Assembly (NCBI RefSeq): GCF_041227145.1
Contig: NZ_JBGFSP010000003.1
Coordinates: forward strand, 1,240,001 to 1,304,000
Origin: Bacteroides sp. AN502(2024)
GTDB taxonomy: Bacteria; Bacteroidota; Bacteroidia; Bacteroidales; Bacteroidaceae
Direction: 5' to 3'
Length of the DNA stretch: 64,000 nt
Every line of letters begins with the position of its first letter. Positions within the stretch are counted from its first letter, which is position 1. The notes under the pieces were generated by a model that was given only the letters and a program-made list of their open reading frames with translations, ran no database searches and had not been told where the DNA came from. Shown piece after piece: positions 1 to 8,336 of the stretch. The position numbers and the translations under genes are program-made.

Positions 1-1311
1 TTCAGGAATGGTCGGATCTGTATCCACAAGGATACCCTGTCCGTTGTTCAATGTGCTAAGATTCAAATTGATCAGATAACCTCCCTTACTGGCCGGAATA
101 TCAGTGGTACCGTCTGTAGCACCTTCTGTTTTCGCATATCCGGATATAACAATAAAACGTCTGTCTGCGGATACGCCCTTATCACCTGTCTTGAAAACGA
201 AAGCAAGTTTGGGAGCATTGTTCGTTTTTCCGTAACCGGTGATTCCATTTGCGAAGAAGTTGAATGCAGCTGCTTTTTTACCAGCTCCGAAATCAAATGC
301 AGTTGTTGTAAAGTAGGAAGATACGTCAGACAGGTCTGTTTTGCCATCTGGTTTGAATGTCCCATTCGTGAAATCATATCTGTCACCTGCATACGTCTTT
401 GCCCAAAACCAGTTAGCCTCTTCTTCCACTGTAAGTGCCGGGACAGAAAGCGTTCTGCTGAAACGGTTCATCAGAATACCCTGGTTGGCAGCAGTGACGT
501 CAACAACCTGTAACCATTTACTTAAGGCAGCTTTCTTCGTAAGGTCGGATTTGCCGTCCCATACTTCCTTATTGAAGCCGTTGGCATCAGCCTTGAAAGC
601 CGTCCATGCATCAGCACTGGTTTTTCCTTTGTTCTCAGCTTTACCCAGCCAAGTCTTGCACCACTGTTCCGCCTCGGCTTTTTTCCCGTCTTTCCAAGTA
701 ATTTTGATAAACTTGGTTCCTGTCACTTGGAAGCGGTTCATGCTGGAAGTTAAAGTGAGCTCCGCCTTCTTTACAACACGCTTATCCTGCTGTGGAGTAA
801 CGCCATAAGGCTCAGCACCGACAGTGGTCAGCTTTTCGGTACCGGCATAGACCACTTCATTGATTTTTGCCTTCAGCAGCTGTTTGCTAACACTAGACAC
901 AGGCTTGTTCTCCACCAACGCTCCTTGAGGGTTTGCAATAACAAGAGCTTTTGTTGCACCTTTGTCTACGTTGAGGAATTTATAACCTCCTGTCACTTCA
1001 CCAACTCCTACAGCGGTAGTTGAAGTTAGCTTGGTAAAATCATCAGAACCCTTTGTAAATTCCTTTGCCAAGACAACATTATCTCCATTTAACAAGTACA
1101 CATGCAATTTCTCAACTGTAGCCGGATCACCGTTATTGACGGTGTTCTGTAAGTCTCCTATAACGGCACGTGTTCCCGGCCCCGGCAATGCCACTGACAT
1201 CACCACATCAACAGGCTGGTTACCACTCTCCGTTACGATTGGATTCTCTTCATTGTTACATGCAGCAAACAACGCCAGCGAAGTCACTGCCAAATACTTC
1301 ATTACTTTCAT
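1..1311 (-). CDS. Fimbrillin-family (Mfa1/FimA-like) lipoprotein, C-terminus cut by window edge
   Basis: An open minus-strand frame runs from an ATG at 1311 to the first base of the window without a stop, so 437 codons are visible and the C-terminus is missing. The N-terminus is a lipoprotein signal (MKVMKYLAV, then FAACNNEE with the lipobox Cys near residue 18). The body is rich in T, G, V and K and low in Cys, typical of Bacteroidales fimbrillins, and it contains RAVIGDL followed by EKLHVYLLNGD, the usual fimbrillin N-terminal strand pattern. It is the third gene of a same-strand set after DUF3575 and DUF3868 genes, 84 bp downstream of the latter, an arrangement common in Mfa-type fimbrial operons. 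The likely role is a structural or accessory pilin processed after lipidation. Whether it is the shaft or a tip subunit cannot be told without the missing end. Confidence 0.8.
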   Translation of the reverse strand, partial: MKVMKYLAVTSLALFAACNNEENPIVTESGNQPVDVVMSVALPGPGTRAVIGDLQNTVNNGDPATVEKLHVYLLNGDNVVLAKEFTKGSDDFTKLTSTTAVGVGEVTGGYKFLNVDKGATKALVIANPQGALVENKPVSSVSKQLLKAKINEVVYAGTEKLTTVGAEPYGVTPQQDKRVVKKAELTLTSSMNRFQVTGTKFIKITWKDGKKAEAEQWCKTWLGKAENKGKTSADAWTAFKADANGFNKEVWDGKSDLTKKAALSKWLQVVDVTAANQGILMNRFSRTLSVPALTVEEEANWFWAKTYAGDRYDFTNGTFKPDGKTDLSDVSSYFTTTAFDFGAGKKAAAFNFFANGITGYGKTNNAPKLAFVFKTGDKGVSADRRFIVISGYAKTEGATDGTTDIPASKGGYLINLNLSTLNNGQGILVDTDPTIPE

Positions 1312-1395: not shown

Positions 1396-2859
1396 CTATT
1401 TGGGAAGTCTTTGCCTGGAGGCTCCGCCCTCACTAGCTTTCTTCAGCAATTCTTCCGCCTTCCTCCAGTCACCTTTTATGTTATGGGCGATGGCCATGGG
1501 GAAAAGTGCACGGCTATCATTCTTTACCGATTCCAGCACTCGCAACGCACTGTCCGCGTCTTTCCTGTATTTCAACAGGGCGTTGGCGTAGTTCAGGGTT
1601 GCCACGGCATCACCCGGGAACTGTCCGTAGGCTCTCTTGTACACATGAAGAGGAGTCTTTCCTTGGGAAGCGTACAATTCGGCCAGCTGGTACATCTCGT
1701 GCTGGCTGAGACATTCTGGCTTCCTCTCAAAAATTTCAGGGAGTTCCTCTATCGTGTAAGGTCTCACGTCAAAGCTGAGACTGAAGGTGGTGCGCCGTAG
1801 AGATGGGTAGAACTCTTTCAAGAGGACGTGATAGCTCCTGCCTTCATCCAGAGCACGTATGGCCGCCTCGCGTTCCGTGTCACGTTGGTTATGCTCGATG
1901 ACAGAAAGGATTTCTCCTTTGTTGGCGAGAGTGGAGCTGCCGACCGCTGCCTTAAGGCCCTCCCAGTCCTCCCCGATACCTTCTGCACGATAAATCGGTG
2001 CTTTCTTCAGGACTGGGTACTGGCTGGAAATATAATCTGAAAGAGTTTGAGTTCGTTGTTGTGCGAGGGACTTGTTGTAGTCGAAATCTCCTTCAGGAGA
2101 GGCGTAGCCTTTTATATGTATGTCTTTGAGTTCCGCCCCTTTGATTGTCAAACTTTCAGATACAAATCTCCCGAGACTGGCAAGCTCTTGACTGTTATTT
2201 GCAAAAGTCTTGCAAAGATCATACTGTGCCACGGGAAAAACCACCTTACAGTCAAAAGAGTCTTTATAACACTTGACCAATACCCTTTCCGGTTCGATAA
2301 AATCGTAGGTATAATCTTTCTCTCCGAAGAGTGGAATGTTAGCTTGAAACGCAACACCTTTATTCTCGTTCACACCACACTCGGCACAACCGTATAACTT
2401 TTCATCCACAACAAGATAGCCGTCGGCCATCCATCTTTCAAAAGGAAAGCTACTTTTGAACGTCAGAGGTCTTTCTTTCAGCTCCTTGACGGAATACACC
2501 TCTCTGTAAAGCTGGTCACTCTTCAGATTATGCAGGGTCTTGCGACGTTTAATGATTTTATATCTCCTTTGACCGGAAATACATATAGGCTTCAACTCCG
2601 CACTTTGGGTACCATCCGCTGAAACAAAGCGAGGAGAGATGCACATCATTTGCTGGCTTTTCAACTTTTCGACAAGCGCTATCGAGAATTCTATATCCAG
2701 TTTATTCCCGTCCATACGTCTCTCCACGCGGCTTCCGGAATAATCCCAATACAGCCCTCCATCTGACGATAAAGTTTCCTGAGCAAAGGTCAGCAGAGGG
2801 AACATTCCCAAGCAACCAATAATAAAAAAATGCTTCTTGTAATATTGTAATGGTTTCAT
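1396..2859 (-). CDS. DUF3868 / OmpA-like outer-membrane-associated protein of the fimbrial operon
   Basis: The protein has 487 residues from the ATG at 2859, which puts MKPLQYYKK and a hydrophobic stretch ending in TFAQ at the N-terminus as a signal peptide. An upstream in-frame ATG at 2907 would add 16 residues of poor signal-like sequence. The first third resembles DUF3868 domains found beside Bacteroidales fimbrillins. Residues about 245-330 (HIKGYASPEGDF, then a Q-R-T-Q-T-L helix) look like an OmpA/MotB peptidoglycan-binding fold. The C-terminus (about 400-487) is helical and TPR-like. It lies between DUF3575 and fimbrillin genes, so a role in anchoring or assembling fimbriae in the outer membrane is inferred. 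The reaction or partner is not shown by the sequence. Confidence 0.8.
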   Translation of the reverse strand: MKPLQYYKKHFFIIGCLGMFPLLTFAQETLSSDGGLYWDYSGSRVERRMDGNKLDIEFSIALVEKLKSQQMMCISPRFVSADGTQSAELKPICISGQRRYKIIKRRKTLHNLKSDQLYREVYSVKELKERPLTFKSSFPFERWMADGYLVVDEKLYGCAECGVNENKGVAFQANIPLFGEKDYTYDFIEPERVLVKCYKDSFDCKVVFPVAQYDLCKTFANNSQELASLGRFVSESLTIKGAELKDIHIKGYASPEGDFDYNKSLAQQRTQTLSDYISSQYPVLKKAPIYRAEGIGEDWEGLKAAVGSSTLANKGEILSVIEHNQRDTEREAAIRALDEGRSYHVLLKEFYPSLRRTTFSLSFDVRPYTIEELPEIFERKPECLSQHEMYQLAELYASQGKTPLHVYKRAYGQFPGDAVATLNYANALLKYRKDADSALRVLESVKNDSRALFPMAIAHNIKGDWRKAEELLKKASEGGASRQRLPK

Positions 2860-2907
2860 AATATACTTTTTAGTGTAAAAGAATAAAAACTCGGGTATGT
2901 GAATCAA

Positions 2908-3519
2908 CTATTTCAACATATAAATAATGGAAATTGCCGCTCTGGTGGGACCGATATAGTCGGCATCCCCCTTCCCCTGCTTTTTCCCACAGGCCGTGCA
3001 CTTATACTTATCATAACGGGTATGCACGTAACCTATTCCCAAAGAGGCCTCTATATTGAAACGGTTGGAAAGCACCCACTGGTAACCGGCACTCAATCCG
3101 CCTCCCCAGAAATAGCCCTCGTAACGGTGGTCCTTCATTTTTCCATCCCCTTTCTGAAGGACGAAGGGTATGTCAATGCCACCGATGTTCATCTGTCCGC
3201 CGTGTACATGCAATCCGAAGAACCAACCGTTGAAAACGTCACATGTCCAGTAACGGAGCTCTGGCTGTACCAGCCAGTGGCTGAACTTTTTCGTCTTGTA
3301 CCGAGAAGAAGTCGCATCCTGCGTGTGGAAAAAGAAATTCATACCCACTTGAGTGTCAAGGGTCCATTTACGTCCCATGGAGAATTCCAAAGATAGATTG
3401 GGGGTTTTCAAGGCATCGTAAGCCAAGTTGTTCTTCAAGGCAACTTTTTGGGAGAAGGCACCTGCTGAACAAAGCAAAAACACCCAAAGAAAAAACTGTT
3501 TCATCATACTGTTATTCAT
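2908..3519 (-). CDS. DUF3575 outer-membrane beta-barrel-like protein, first gene of the fimbrial operon
   Basis: A 203-residue protein with a cleavable signal (hydrophobic core, then GAFSQ) and an alternating-strand, aromatic-rich body (KVALKNNLAYDALKTPNLSLE and later GGGLSAGYQWVLSNRFNIE) typical of DUF3575 barrels. Such genes regularly precede DUF3868 and fimbrillin genes in Bacteroidales. The start at 3519 (MNNSMMKQ) could equally be the internal Met at 3507 or 3504. The gene ends 48 bp before the DUF3868 start, consistent with an operon. The 190 bp between its start and the inverted-repeat site at 3711 contain no TAnnTTTG box on this strand, so its promoter may lie inside the neighbouring invertible segment. 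Confidence 0.8.
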   Translation of the reverse strand: MNNSMMKQFFLWVFLLCSAGAFSQKVALKNNLAYDALKTPNLSLEFSMGRKWTLDTQVGMNFFFHTQDATSSRYKTKKFSHWLVQPELRYWTCDVFNGWFFGLHVHGGQMNIGGIDIPFVLQKGDGKMKDHRYEGYFWGGGLSAGYQWVLSNRFNIEASLGIGYVHTRYDKYKCTACGKKQGKGDADYIGPTRAAISIIYMLK

Positions 3520-3710
3520 TGTTCCATTATTTTATTCTTGTTTAAAGAATGCAGAACTATTCTTATGTAATGATTATTAATAGAGTTTAATTTCCTGGAA
3601 AAACTCCAAAATCTTTCTTACACGAAAATCTTTTTTGCACGTTAGACCATTTCTTATTGAATATTTCATGACTCGTTCGCATAATATCATTGAATTAAAA
3701 TGCTTGTTAT
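3520..3710 (-). promoter_or_regulatory. Fimbrial operon leader with no recognisable promoter
   Basis: This AT-rich stretch separates the DUF3575 start from the left inversion site. On the minus strand I found no TAnnTTTG -7 box. The closest (RC of CAAAATCT near 3608) lacks the TA. The stretch probably serves as untranslated leader when transcription enters from the invertible segment. Confidence 0.4.
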
Positions 3711-3741
3711 TTTTCCACTCTCTCCCATAGAGAGTGGAAAA
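3711..3741. repeat. Left inversion site (palindromic, inverted copy of 4877-4905)
   Basis: The 12-bp arm TTTTCCACTCTC (3711-3722) and its perfect complement GAGAGTGGAAAA (3730-3741) flank a 7-bp asymmetric core TCCCATA (3723-3729). The core is the exact reverse complement of the core in the right-hand site. Two arms around a 6-8 bp core is the layout of tyrosine-recombinase crossover sites. A nearby ACAG...AAACAAG string follows the right arm, and a similar string follows the other site. Confidence 0.85.
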
Positions 3742-3877
3742 ACAGTCAAAACAAGTTGTCTAAGTGCATACATGTGTGATGAAGAATATTAGAATATGAA
3801 TAAAGCCAATAATAGATTATATAACTATCTGATATATAGAATAAAGATCTTATCTATCAGCAACAAAAACAGAAACA

Positions 3878-4723
3878 ATGGAACTATTTTATTTGAGCGA
3901 ACATACGTCATGCTATCATTATTCGAAATGTATGCAGGAAGGATTCCGGCACTATAAATTTGATAAGGGATTGAATCATGAAGAACAACTGGTAAAGGAC
4001 TGTATCCTGTTTGTTTTGAAAGGAAGTCTACAGCTCTCCTGTAATGGTTTTCAGCCTACGATATCAGAGGGTAAGATGGTATTTCTATGCCGTGATAGCC
4101 TGTTCAGCATGTGTGCGTTGGAAAACTGCGAAGTAATGACCGCCATGTTTGAGGGCGGGGTATGGTCTTGCCAAAAGGCCTCTTTCTCGGAACTATATCA
4201 TTTAAAAGGTGTCATTGAATACCGTATGGAGCCTCTTGATATAAGAGAGCGTTTATCTAAATTTCTTGAACTTTTGGCCGGTTACTTGAAAGACGGGGCA
4301 AATTGCATCCATTTTCATGAGATAAAGCTTAAAGAACTTTTTTGGAATATCCGTTTTTACTATTCCAAGCCGGAACTGGCAAATTTCTTCTACACGATAA
4401 TCGGGCAATCGCAGGATTTCAAAAATAAAGTTTTGGATAATTATAAAGGATGCAGAACGGTGAAAGAGTTGGCATCAGCCTGTGGACTTTCCATTTCCAC
4501 ATTTAAAAGGCAGTTCAATACAGAGTTTGGGGAAACACCGGCTGAATGGATGCAGAAACAATTATTGGGGGAGATTAAGTATAAACTTTCAGTCACAGAC
4601 TTACCGTTGGGGATCATTGCCAATGAATTGGATTTTTCGTCCTTGGCGAATTTCTCCAGATTTTGTAAAAGATGTCTGGGATATTCTCCCAAGGAGCTGA
4701 GGGAACAGATAAAAAGTAAGTAG
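3878..4723 (+). CDS. AraC-family transcriptional regulator inside the invertible segment
   Basis: The protein has 281 residues. Residues 1-165 form a cupin-like sensor half (FVLKGSLQLSCNG, EGKMVFLCRDSLF). Residues about 180-278 carry two helix-turn-helix units: TVKELASACGLSISTFKRQF, then LGIIANELDFSSLANFSRFC and the family-typical ending GYSPKELRE. It is transcribed away from the fimbrial operon in this orientation and would read towards it after inversion. It may control the fimbriae, its own segment, or the recombinase; the target is inferred only from position. No clear TAnnTTTG box was found in its 135-bp upstream stretch within the segment. Confidence 0.9.
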   Translation: MELFYLSEHTSCYHYSKCMQEGFRHYKFDKGLNHEEQLVKDCILFVLKGSLQLSCNGFQPTISEGKMVFLCRDSLFSMCALENCEVMTAMFEGGVWSCQKASFSELYHLKGVIEYRMEPLDIRERLSKFLELLAGYLKDGANCIHFHEIKLKELFWNIRFYYSKPELANFFYTIIGQSQDFKNKVLDNYKGCRTVKELASACGLSISTFKRQFNTEFGETPAEWMQKQLLGEIKYKLSVTDLPLGIIANELDFSSLANFSRFCKRCLGYSPKELREQIKSK

Positions 4724-4804
4724 AAAACAATGCAAAGAGGATGCAAGAGACAAATTGATAAACAATAGGACTAAATGGGAAATAGTAGAAAGTATAAGAT
4801 GTGC

Positions 4805-4813
4805 TAACTTTGC
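4805..4813 (+). promoter_or_regulatory. -7 promoter box near the right end of the invertible segment
   Basis: TAACTTTGC followed by AGCG matches the Bacteroides -7 form TAnnTTTG. No TTTG is seen at the -33 position. As drawn it points at the 3' end of the recombinase gene and drives nothing obvious. After inversion it would point at the fimbrial operon from about 65 bp inside the left site. Confidence 0.5.
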
Positions 4814-4876
4814 AGCGTAATTAAATATTAAAGGATTGATTGTCTTTTTTGTATATGTAGCACTCTATTTGGAGCG

Positions 4877-4905
4877 TTTTCCACTCTCTATGGGAGAGAG
4901 TGAAA
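4877..4905. repeat. Right inversion site (inverted copy of 3711-3741)
   Basis: The arm TTTTCCACTCTC (4877-4888) is identical to the left arm of the other site. The core TATGGGA (4889-4895) is the reverse complement of the other core. The second arm GAGAGTGAAA (4896-4905) has lost one G relative to GAGAGTGGAAAA. Confidence 0.85.
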
Positions 4906-5081
4906 CAGAAACAAGTATATACATTTTATGATGATATACCATAAAATAAAGAAAAATGCCACTTTTAAAAATCCTCTTTTTCTTTTATATAACATACACA
5001 CCGGACTAAAGTTCGCAGAAATGTCGAGAAATGGTAAAATCCCGATAGTTAGAATTTTTTGTATAATAATAAATCGCCAAT

Positions 5082-6299
5082 TCACTGTCTGGCTTGGGAC
5101 TGAATGAAATTTGCCACTTGATTATTGACCGCATCCAATGCGGAATGATCCAGCTCCTTCAGATAGATTCTGGTCGTTTTTTCCGATGTATGGCCCAGAC
5201 ATTCACCGATAATATGGATCGAAGCTCCGCTTTCCTTGGCTATCGTGGCCCATGAATGGCGCGCTGCGTGGAGTCTCAGCGGGGTCTCCAGACCGATAGA
5301 CCGGGAAATCTTTCTCAAAGAGTAACGAATCTTATGATAGGCGTTTCTGTAACCGGTGTACGGTTCCTCTTTTTCCGTGAACAACGGGAACATGTACTCC
5401 CCCGGTACATTCTTGTACCTTTCCAAGATACGATTGATCTCCCTGTTTATGCCCACCCGCATCAATTGATCGGTCTTGTGGCGTTTGTAACAGATTTCAG
5501 CAGGAAAGACATTCTTTTTTTTCAGCAATGCGATATCGACGAACGACATTCCACGCGTGTAAAAACTGAACATGAAAATGTCTCGGGCAAGGGACAGCGG
5601 ACTGTTCTTTTCCAGTTCCATGCCGGAGAGTGTTCTAATCACACCCGTATCAAGAGAACGTTTGAGTGTTTTTTCCGTCTTGATGCTTATCTCGCGAAAT
5701 GGACAGGGGAGTTCCAGGCCCATCTCCCGACATCCCTTCCTGAAAAGGGCCTTGATATTATGTAGATAAAAGCCGATGGTATTATCGCATATTCCCGAAG
5801 CGAGAAGTTTCCCGTGATAATCGGCTATGATCCGGGAAGATAGCTTGATGAAGGGGAAATCCTTTTTTCCCAGGTATCTCTGCATCGAACGCAGGCTGGA
5901 GGCGTATGCCCGGGCTGTTCCCTCGTGACCGCTTTGACGAAGCTCCAGAATTTTCCGTGAAAAGTAGGAATAAAAACCGGTTTCACGGGTTAACACGCTG
6001 TAAGTCCTGAACACGTCCTCTATTTCATATTCCCGAGATTCCTTTTCCATTATTGAAATGCTCTTCAACAGTATCCTTGAGATACTTTCGCACCTGTGGT
6101 TGATCCGTCGGACTGTTTCCGGAGTGTTCTCCCCTCCAATGATCACTCTTCCCCTTACGGGATCAAACAAGTTGTCCGGGATGCTGACTCCTGTATAAAC
6201 TACCTTTTTCCTTCGCTTGTGAAGAACTTGCACGACTAACGGAAATTTGCCGGACCGGTTGCTTCTTCCTTTTACTAATACTGTTTTAACTGTTGCCAT
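5082..6299 (-). CDS. Tyrosine recombinase / site-specific invertase
   Basis: A 405-residue phage-integrase-fold protein of the Bacteroides chromosomal type. The N-terminal arm-like domain (FPLVVQVLHKRRKK) is followed by a SAM-like core-binding region (about 105-205). The catalytic domain shows R in FYTRGMSF (about 250), K in YKRHKTDQ, H-x-x-R in LHAARHSWA (about 345), and GHTSEKTTRIYLK with the nucleophilic Tyr near 380. All key residues are present, so the enzyme is probably active. Its 3' end faces the right inversion site about 180 bp away. The natural reading is that it inverts the AraC segment, although Bacteroides recombinases can also act at distant sites. Its promoter was not identified. 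Confidence 0.9.
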   Translation of the reverse strand: MATVKTVLVKGRSNRSGKFPLVVQVLHKRRKKVVYTGVSIPDNLFDPVRGRVIIGGENTPETVRRINHRCESISRILLKSISIMEKESREYEIEDVFRTYSVLTRETGFYSYFSRKILELRQSGHEGTARAYASSLRSMQRYLGKKDFPFIKLSSRIIADYHGKLLASGICDNTIGFYLHNIKALFRKGCREMGLELPCPFREISIKTEKTLKRSLDTGVIRTLSGMELEKNSPLSLARDIFMFSFYTRGMSFVDIALLKKKNVFPAEICYKRHKTDQLMRVGINREINRILERYKNVPGEYMFPLFTEKEEPYTGYRNAYHKIRYSLRKISRSIGLETPLRLHAARHSWATIAKESGASIHIIGECLGHTSEKTTRIYLKELDHSALDAVNNQVANFIQSQARQ

Positions 6300-7560: not shown

Positions 7561-8309
7561 CCTGCTTTATCGTTCTTTTAAATGCCGTTGAGTCAAGAAA
7601 CGTCTGCTTTATCGTTCTTTTAAACGCCATTGCTGCAAGAAACGTCTGCTTTATCATTCTTTTAACTGCTGTTGCTGCAAGAAACGCCTGCTTTATCGTT
7701 CTTTTAAACGCCATTGCTGCAAGAAACGTCTGCTTTATCGTCTTTTAAACGCCATTGCATCAAGAAACGTCTGCTTTATCGTTCTTTTAAATGCCATTGG
7801 TGCAAGAAACGTCTACTTTATCGTCTTTTAAACGCCATTGGTGCAAGAAACGTCTACTTTATCGTCTTTTAAACGCCATTGCTGCAAGAAACGCCTGCTT
7901 TATCTTCTTTTAAACGCTATTGCATCAAGAAACGTCTGCTTTATCGTTCTTTTAAACGCCATTGCTGCAAGAAACGCCTGCTTTATCGTCTTTTAAACGC
8001 CATTGCTGCAAGAAACGTCTGCTTTATCTTCTTTTAAACGCCATTGCTGCAAGAAACGCCTGCTTTATCATTCTTTTAAATGCCATTGCTGCAAGAAACG
8101 CCTGCTTTATCTTCTTTTAAACACCATTGCTGCAAGAAACACCTGCTTTATCATTCTTTTAAACGCCATTGCTGCAAGAAACATCTGCTTTATCATTCTT
8201 TTAAACGCTGTTGGTGCAAGAAACGCTTGCTTTATCATTCTTTTAAACGCTATTGCTGCAAGAAACATCTGCTTTATCATTCTTTTAAACACCATTGCTG
8301 CAAGAAACG
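7561..8309. repeat. Tandem array of 18 units of 42 or 41 bp
   Basis: Counting by hand gives 18 contiguous units: 11 of 42 bp and 7 of 41 bp, which sum exactly to 749 bp. A 7-base start of a 19th unit follows. Each unit opens with CTGCTTTATC, has a TTCTTTTAAACGCC middle and ends in GCAAGAAACG. The 41-bp form has lost one base in the ATCGTTC step. Units differ at a few fixed positions. There are no spacers. The array lies between the end of the lipoprotein gene and the promoter of the YczE-type gene. Frames inside it (14-residue repeats rich in K, R, A, F) are broken by the 41-bp units, so it is probably not coding. Confidence 0.9.
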
Positions 8310-8336
8310 CCTGCTTAAAGCTGCTAAAGCAAAACA

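Follow-up and report, generated by a model that had tools for sequence, protein, structure and literature searches.

Tyrosine-recombinase inversions at surface-protein and fimbria-like loci of Bacteroides fragilis, associated with the name Tsr15 and reportedly described by Weinacht et al. in 2004, form the closest precedent for the element considered here, a putative invertible segment that encloses the gene of an AraC-family regulator beside a fimbrial operon of Bacteroides sp. AN502(2024). The stretch of DNA that was analysed, hereafter the window, comprises 64 kb (C3:1240001-1304000) of a 4.8-Mb genome assembled in 15 contigs. In a review's account of a phase-variable B. fragilis locus with an aggregative phenotype, a tyrosine recombinase likewise lies beside an invertible region and a fimbria-like subunit gene (PMC12632263). 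Invertible promoters of Bacteroides, found at capsule loci with Mpi and at IVp-I/IVp-II with BF2766/Tsr19, carry the -7 consensus TAnnTTTG between inverted repeats, and their orientation sets expression (PMC4747536). The window shares the arrangement of a -7 box promoter between inverted repeats; however, the segments there are described as promoters, whereas the segment in the window also encloses a whole regulator gene and an operator-like signature. Escherichia coli fimS and other short fimbrial switches resemble the window in that a promoter is flipped before a fimbrial operon (PMC5903667) by a tyrosine recombinase (PMC9993118), but they are promoter-only elements of about 300 bp serving chaperone-usher fimbriae, in contrast to a segment of 1.2 kb with a regulator gene before type V pili. 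A complete gene does lie inside the invertible segments of Salmonella hin and of Providencia stuartii (844 bp, beside fimbriae), as it does in the window; in these two cases the enclosed gene is the recombinase (PMC5903667), whereas the segment of the window encloses a transcription regulator and leaves the recombinase outside. Inversion of promoters, gene pieces and recombinase-enclosing segments is already known (PMC5903667, PMC12632263), and a large survey mentions regulatory genes among inverting regions (PMC10939037). We found no description of an invertible segment enclosing an AraC regulator upstream of fimbriae in the open-access literature, a scope outside which most subscription journals and the 2004 report fall.

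Judging from sequence comparisons, the window probably holds a site-specific inversion switch of a type V fimbrial operon, in which a recombinase would flip a cassette made of araC, an operator and a promoter. Bacteroides inversion switches have mostly been described as promoter flips; here a cassette of activator, operator and promoter appears to flip before genes for adhesive pili. The parts of the putative switch are as follows.

3711-3741, no strand: fimbria-side inversion site of 12-7-12 form, TTTTCCACTCTC-TCCCATA-GAGAGTGGAAAA, arms perfectly palindromic
3742-4876, no strand: interior of the invertible segment, based on the opposite orientations in loci L013 and L014
3878-4723, plus strand: gene of an AraC-family regulator of 281 amino acids (Pfam HTH_18 65.9 bits, cut-off 33.6; HTH_AraC 53.2 bits, above cut-off)
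4745-4786, plus strand: candidate AraC operator, a 21-bp direct-repeat signature taken from the aggregate of loci
4805-4817, plus strand: promoter-like -7 box TAACTTTGCAGCG directed out of the segment, which as now oriented faces away from the fimbriae
4877-4907, no strand: recombinase-side inversion site of 12-7-12 form, TTTTCCACTCTC-TATGGGA-GAGAGTGAAACA, outer arm with two mismatches
5082-6299, minus strand: gene of a tyrosine recombinase of 405 amino acids (Pfam Phage_integrase 46.5 bits, cut-off 27.1; Phage_int_SAM_5 and Arm-DNA-bind_5 above cut-off)

The two sites are inverted relative to each other, and their spacers TCCCATA and TATGGGA are exact reverse complements. Together they form a 39-nt inverted pair with an ungapped score of 27, compared with at most 12 in 15 shuffles. 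A 29-mer search allowing up to three mismatches matched the 4.8-Mb assembly at these two places alone, each site once, and the same 29-mer read backwards gave no match in it. The initial annotation had proposed two inverted 12-7-12 palindromes with complementary cores, which was borne out at both positions; its second site (4877-4905) starts correctly but runs on to 4907. It had also placed a complete recombinase about 180 bp and fimbrial genes about 190 bp outside the segment, in agreement with the measured 174 bp from the second site to the end of the recombinase gene and 191 bp from the first site to the DUF3575 gene. Among 399 genomes of the family, CACTCTCTNNNNNAGAGAGTG occurs in three: the source genome (at both sites), G219 (at two araC/recombinase loci) and G335, where the surroundings (L102) hold no match to the araC, recombinase or fimbrial proteins of the window.

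Besides this anatomy, a comparison of two near-identical loci supports inversion. A scan of contigs for relatives of the AraC protein gave three loci: L013 (B. xylanisolvens XB1A), L014 (the metagenome-assembled genome SUG2176) and L015 (B. fragilis). Between L013 and L014 the recombinase-side flank is 98.7% identical over 3,074 bp in one relative orientation, the 1.2-kb segment is 97.7% identical in the opposite orientation relative to that flank, and the outer flanks are swapped at the sites. Recombinase, araC and fimbrial genes are colinear in L014, while L013 shows the geometry of araC and recombinase seen in the window. Since segment and flank match at about 98% in opposite relative orientations, the sequences indicate that the segment inverts in nature, as seen between two genomes, and bear out the earlier proposal that the whole regulator gene flips with it. 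In L015 araC and the fimbrial operon lie 4.2 kb apart, with neither a relative of the recombinase in the stretch nor strong repeats.

The arrangement recurs across the genus. When 158 genomes of the genus were searched with the AraC alignment, 46 of them gave 77 matches in all at E <= 1e-55; for each genome this search scored only the 15 candidates that ranked highest at first look. Four matches from outside the genus (399 genomes), L014 and two neighbours within the retrieved stretches brought the set to 84, from which three hits under 190 bits were dropped, so that 81 AraC homologs were compared; L098 (the same place as L013) and L102 (without araC) had been left out before counting. Inverted repeats scoring at least 16 flank 22 of the 25 homologs with a recombinase within 2.5 kb and none of the 56 without (Fisher 6e-17), these two thresholds having been set after viewing the first 23 araC genes, which are among the 81, and the counts being not fully independent because L083/L084, L108/L110 and L013/L014 are near-identical. 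Shuffled controls gave no flanking pair at any of the 81 (top score 15). The three exceptions, in L103-L105, are second araC genes situated beyond the recombinase. The sites fall into several families, for example CACTCTC-7-GAGAGTG and the TCTATTCCGTAATAGAGA and TTCATCTGT types. Within one locus both sites remain alike. Across the 22 loci the correlation between AraC distance and recombinase distance is 0.97, a value reached in none of 5000 permutations. A link between inversion sites and recombinase, as the initial annotation had it, is supported by these comparisons. The module thus recurs at 22 loci, its recombinase-less relatives serve as natural controls, and it pairs recombinases with several site families.

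Outside the genus, 20 places were found in 393 genomes of the order, of which 18 loci were examined (two of G533 were left out). Repeats scoring at least 16 occur in L163 alone, where a recombinase lies at a distance of 3.1 kb and the DUF3575 gene is divergent, and in none of the other 17 loci, five of which have DUF3575 downstream with the same orientation.

In L103, L104 and L105 the recombinase gene is preceded by a second AraC homolog, which has the same direction and might control the recombinase. G219 carries two near-identical copies of the module (L083 and L084), together with part of an araC gene and, at L084:4805-4825, a sequence that resembles a site. At L085:8366-9815 (G427) a recombinase remnant stands beside araC in the ON orientation together with a 12-nt repeat pair; this may be a switch that decay has fixed in the ON state.

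Orientation relative to the fimbrial genes separates the two groups of loci. Where a DUF3575 gene is near, recombinase-linked loci comprise 16 that are OFF, with araC pointing away, one that is ON (L014) and one that is unclear (L013); a further four without DUF3575 nearby are OFF by recombinase geometry, which brings the loci called OFF to 20 of the 22 invertible ones. One of these four, L104 of B. fragilis Q1F2, represents the araC-carrying form beside FimA and Mfa2 genes, which point away from araC. The recombinase-less loci comprise 19 ON, three OFF, one other and 33 without DUF3575 nearby, the 19 including L085 with its recombinase remnant and 12-nt pair and L015 with DUF3575 4.2 kb away. 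OFF:ON is 16:1 in recombinase-linked loci versus 3:19 in recombinase-less ones (Fisher 4e-7). Because recombinase-less loci are mostly ON and recombinase-linked ones mostly OFF, the colinear order looks like the fixed form, and recombinase-bearing loci look as if mostly caught flipped. The segment in the window is accordingly predicted to be in the OFF state, and the module would allow ON and OFF to be predicted from orientation alone for many gut species.

A promoter-like box lies behind araC in both groups. The region scanned ran from the araC stop codon to the 3' site or, at fixed loci, to the point where the DUF3575 match begins. In the direction of araC it contains T[AT]NNTTTGCA at 18 of the 22 invertible loci and at 14 of the 18 fixed ones, and in reverse at 0 of 40; relaxed to TTTGC, the box is found at 20 of 22 and 17 of 18. 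Its background frequency is 261 in 2,201,996 strand-bases across all these loci. It resembles the Bacteroides -7 consensus TAnnTTTG (PMC4747536), of which no copy faces the fimbrial operon on the minus strand of the window in the scanned interval 3396-4419. A scan for promoters of the E. coli type gave no clear excess (8, shuffled mean 6.7, sd 2.6).

Self-identity at lags of 10-30 was computed (300 shuffles) for the interval lying 60 to 19 nt ahead of the box, in 17 of the 22 invertible loci, without the near-copies L014, L084 and L110 and the box-less L105 and L132, and in 17 of the 18 fixed loci, without L086. For a lag of 21 bp this identity amounts to 0.49 in the invertible and 0.52 in the fixed group, against shuffled maxima of 0.392 and 0.356, and every other lag from 10 to 30 stays at or below 0.39. 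Two direct half-sites 21 bp apart beside a promoter are the classical AraC arrangement. The segment also takes along the 140-320 bp that precede araC, and in two site families this region contains a conserved TGAAACA-N4-TGAAACA repeat that is perhaps araC's own control region.

These elements suggest the following mechanism. The adjacent tyrosine recombinase would exchange strands at both sites and so flip the 1.2-kb segment, a cassette predicted to consist of the gene of an AraC-family activator and, 3' of it, the operator of that activator and an outward fimbrial promoter. In the ON state recombinase, araC, operator, promoter, site, leader and fimbrial genes would be colinear, and the AraC-activated promoter would drive the operon. 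In the predicted OFF state, as in the window, araC and promoter face the 3' end of the recombinase gene, away from the fimbriae, and no consensus box points towards the operon. The sequences show the anatomy, the two orientations in near-identical loci, the association of recombinase with repeats, and the conservation of the outward box and the repeat signature; flipping by this particular recombinase, activation of the promoter by this AraC protein and dependence of fimbrial expression on orientation are inferred. Since its upstream region moves with the segment, araC is probably expressed in both states. The earlier suggestion that direction and control change together is upheld in the sense that the promoter-like box and the operator-like signature travel with araC; a change in araC's own expression becomes less likely, as its upstream 140-320 bp travel too.

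Several observations weigh against the proposed switch. L105 and L132, two of the 22 invertible loci, lack the box even in relaxed form, and the window's own repeat is weak (9/21 at lag 21, the best being 13/22 at lag 20). L152, at 189.9 bits just below the cut-off, has an adjacent recombinase and a degenerate pair scoring only 12, and the recombinases of L131 and L132 match only from profile positions 104 and 80. Three recombinase-less loci are OFF, with DUF3575 about 2.8 kb away and, in L116, other genes intervening. Among the recombinase-linked loci there is one clear ON case only, L014, which is a metagenome-assembled genome; its counterpart L013 is interrupted on the fimbrial side by 3.3 kb of N, beyond which DUF3575 lies on an unexpected strand, and therefore the recombinase side and a short fimbrial flank carry the inversion argument.

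The weak operator signature in the window would fit a plain invertible promoter, the segment controlling the fimbriae and araC riding along as a passenger that does not act on the promoter. We regard this as improbable: araC lies directly upstream of box and DUF3575 in most recombinase-less loci too (19 ON), the 21-bp repeat signature is present in invertible and fixed groups alike, and araC is under constraint at the protein level. That 20 of the 22 invertible loci are OFF (16 by DUF3575, four by recombinase geometry) would also fit a fixed rearrangement, in which araC has simply stayed divergent from the fimbriae wherever a lineage bears the recombinase, and no switch is live; yet what separates L013 from L014, at about 98% identity, is an inversion exactly bounded by the sites, and each locus keeps its pair of sites alike, which makes this account very unlikely. 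The integrase-type and arm-binding domains of the recombinase could be taken to mean that the sites are attachment sites of a small mobile element. This explanation was rejected as scarcely credible because the sites are inverted rather than direct; moreover, the recombinase lies outside them, and the difference between relatives is an inversion.

An extension of the switch of activator, operator and promoter can be offered more tentatively, and we think it doubtful rather than likely. Since the OFF promoter points at the recombinase 3' end, and 19 of the 20 invertible loci (out of 22) that a simple scan covered show no intrinsic terminator in the interval from the site to the recombinase, transcription from this promoter could run antisense through the recombinase gene. 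The circuit might then lock itself: in the OFF state antisense transcription would lower recombinase levels and hold the switch OFF, while in the ON state fimbriae would be made, antisense transcription would stop and the recombinase would return the switch to OFF. The recombinase 3' end faces the segment in all 22 invertible loci, of which 20 are called OFF and one ON, and it is speculation that antisense transcription would favour OFF, as in these counts. If true, a regulator travelling with its promoter would, depending on the state, govern either adhesion or the flipping rate, a testable idea of a switch that sets its own rate of inversion.

The operon on the other side of the segment begins with the following features, the leader lying outside the invertible segment.

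3520-3710, minus strand: leader of the fimbrial operon
2908-3519, minus strand: DUF3575 protein, first gene of the operon (Pfam DUF3575 221.8 bits, cut-off 21.1)
1396-2907, minus strand: DUF3868/OmpA-like/TPR protein of the operon (Pfam DUF3868 25.2 bits, cut-off 27; TPR_19 25.2 bits, cut-off 25)
1-1311, minus strand: gene of an Mfa1-like fimbrial subunit, truncated at the window edge; in full 475 amino acids at L011:14884-16311

The Mfa1-like gene scores 43.4 bits with NCBIfam fim_Mfa1_fam, under the cut-off of 130. Past the left edge of the window the operon extends to an Mfa2-type anchor, DUF5042 and a large gene with a FimA domain (Pfam), a content of the type V (Mfa/Fim) pilus kind (Mfa2 134.7 bits; P_gingi_FimA 26.2 bits, cut-off 21.4). 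A leader block upstream of DUF3575 is conserved in L014 and L015 and absent from the window; an Rfam search of L014 gave no match.

The AraC protein was modelled with a mean predicted local distance difference test score of 85.7, and the nearest solved folds by Foldseek E-value are ToxT, Rns and CsvR, albeit with template modelling scores of about 0.3 for the whole model and 12-15% identity. ToxT and Rns activate pilus operons; neither these two nor CsvR are known to lie in invertible DNA. Compared with L013, araC has 0.10 nonsynonymous differences per nonsynonymous site (pN) and 0.84 synonymous differences per synonymous site (pS), values indicating that it is conserved at the protein level. 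In every comparison among the window, L013/L014 and L015, its pS of 0.68-0.84 lies above the 0.32-0.62 of the flanking genes; replacement of the cassette by transfer was considered and rejected, as an excess recurring in each comparison looks like a property of the gene and not of one event. In an alignment of 17 sequences (A1) the residues C12, C98 and C143-x-H145-x-H147 are invariant and lie outside the DNA-binding domain, and these might serve metal binding or redox sensing. The genome's second AraC homolog (contig C12, L012) has no match to the fimbrial or recombinase proteins of the window within 19 kb and no repeat pair over 29 nt at 72% around it.

The 3' end of the recombinase gene faces the segment. 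R347, H370 and Y379 are invariant in 13 of 13 aligned relatives, while the first catalytic arginine is not plainly identifiable there. A second, distant tyrosine recombinase (26% identical) is encoded at L011:7486-8766, about 6 kb left of the window and just beyond the far end of the operon.

A few further observations concern single loci. At L013:3059-7480 (XB1A) the DUF3575 relative on the unexpected strand adjoins the 3.3-kb run of N, by either misassembly or further rearrangement. A lone palindrome of another site family (CATCTGT-7-ACAGATG type), perhaps a relic, lies between the recombinase-side site and the recombinase at L013:9134-9154 and L014:7703-7723. In the window itself, a tandem array of 18 copies of a 42-bp unit occupies 7562-8316, between a DUF6198 gene and the next operon.

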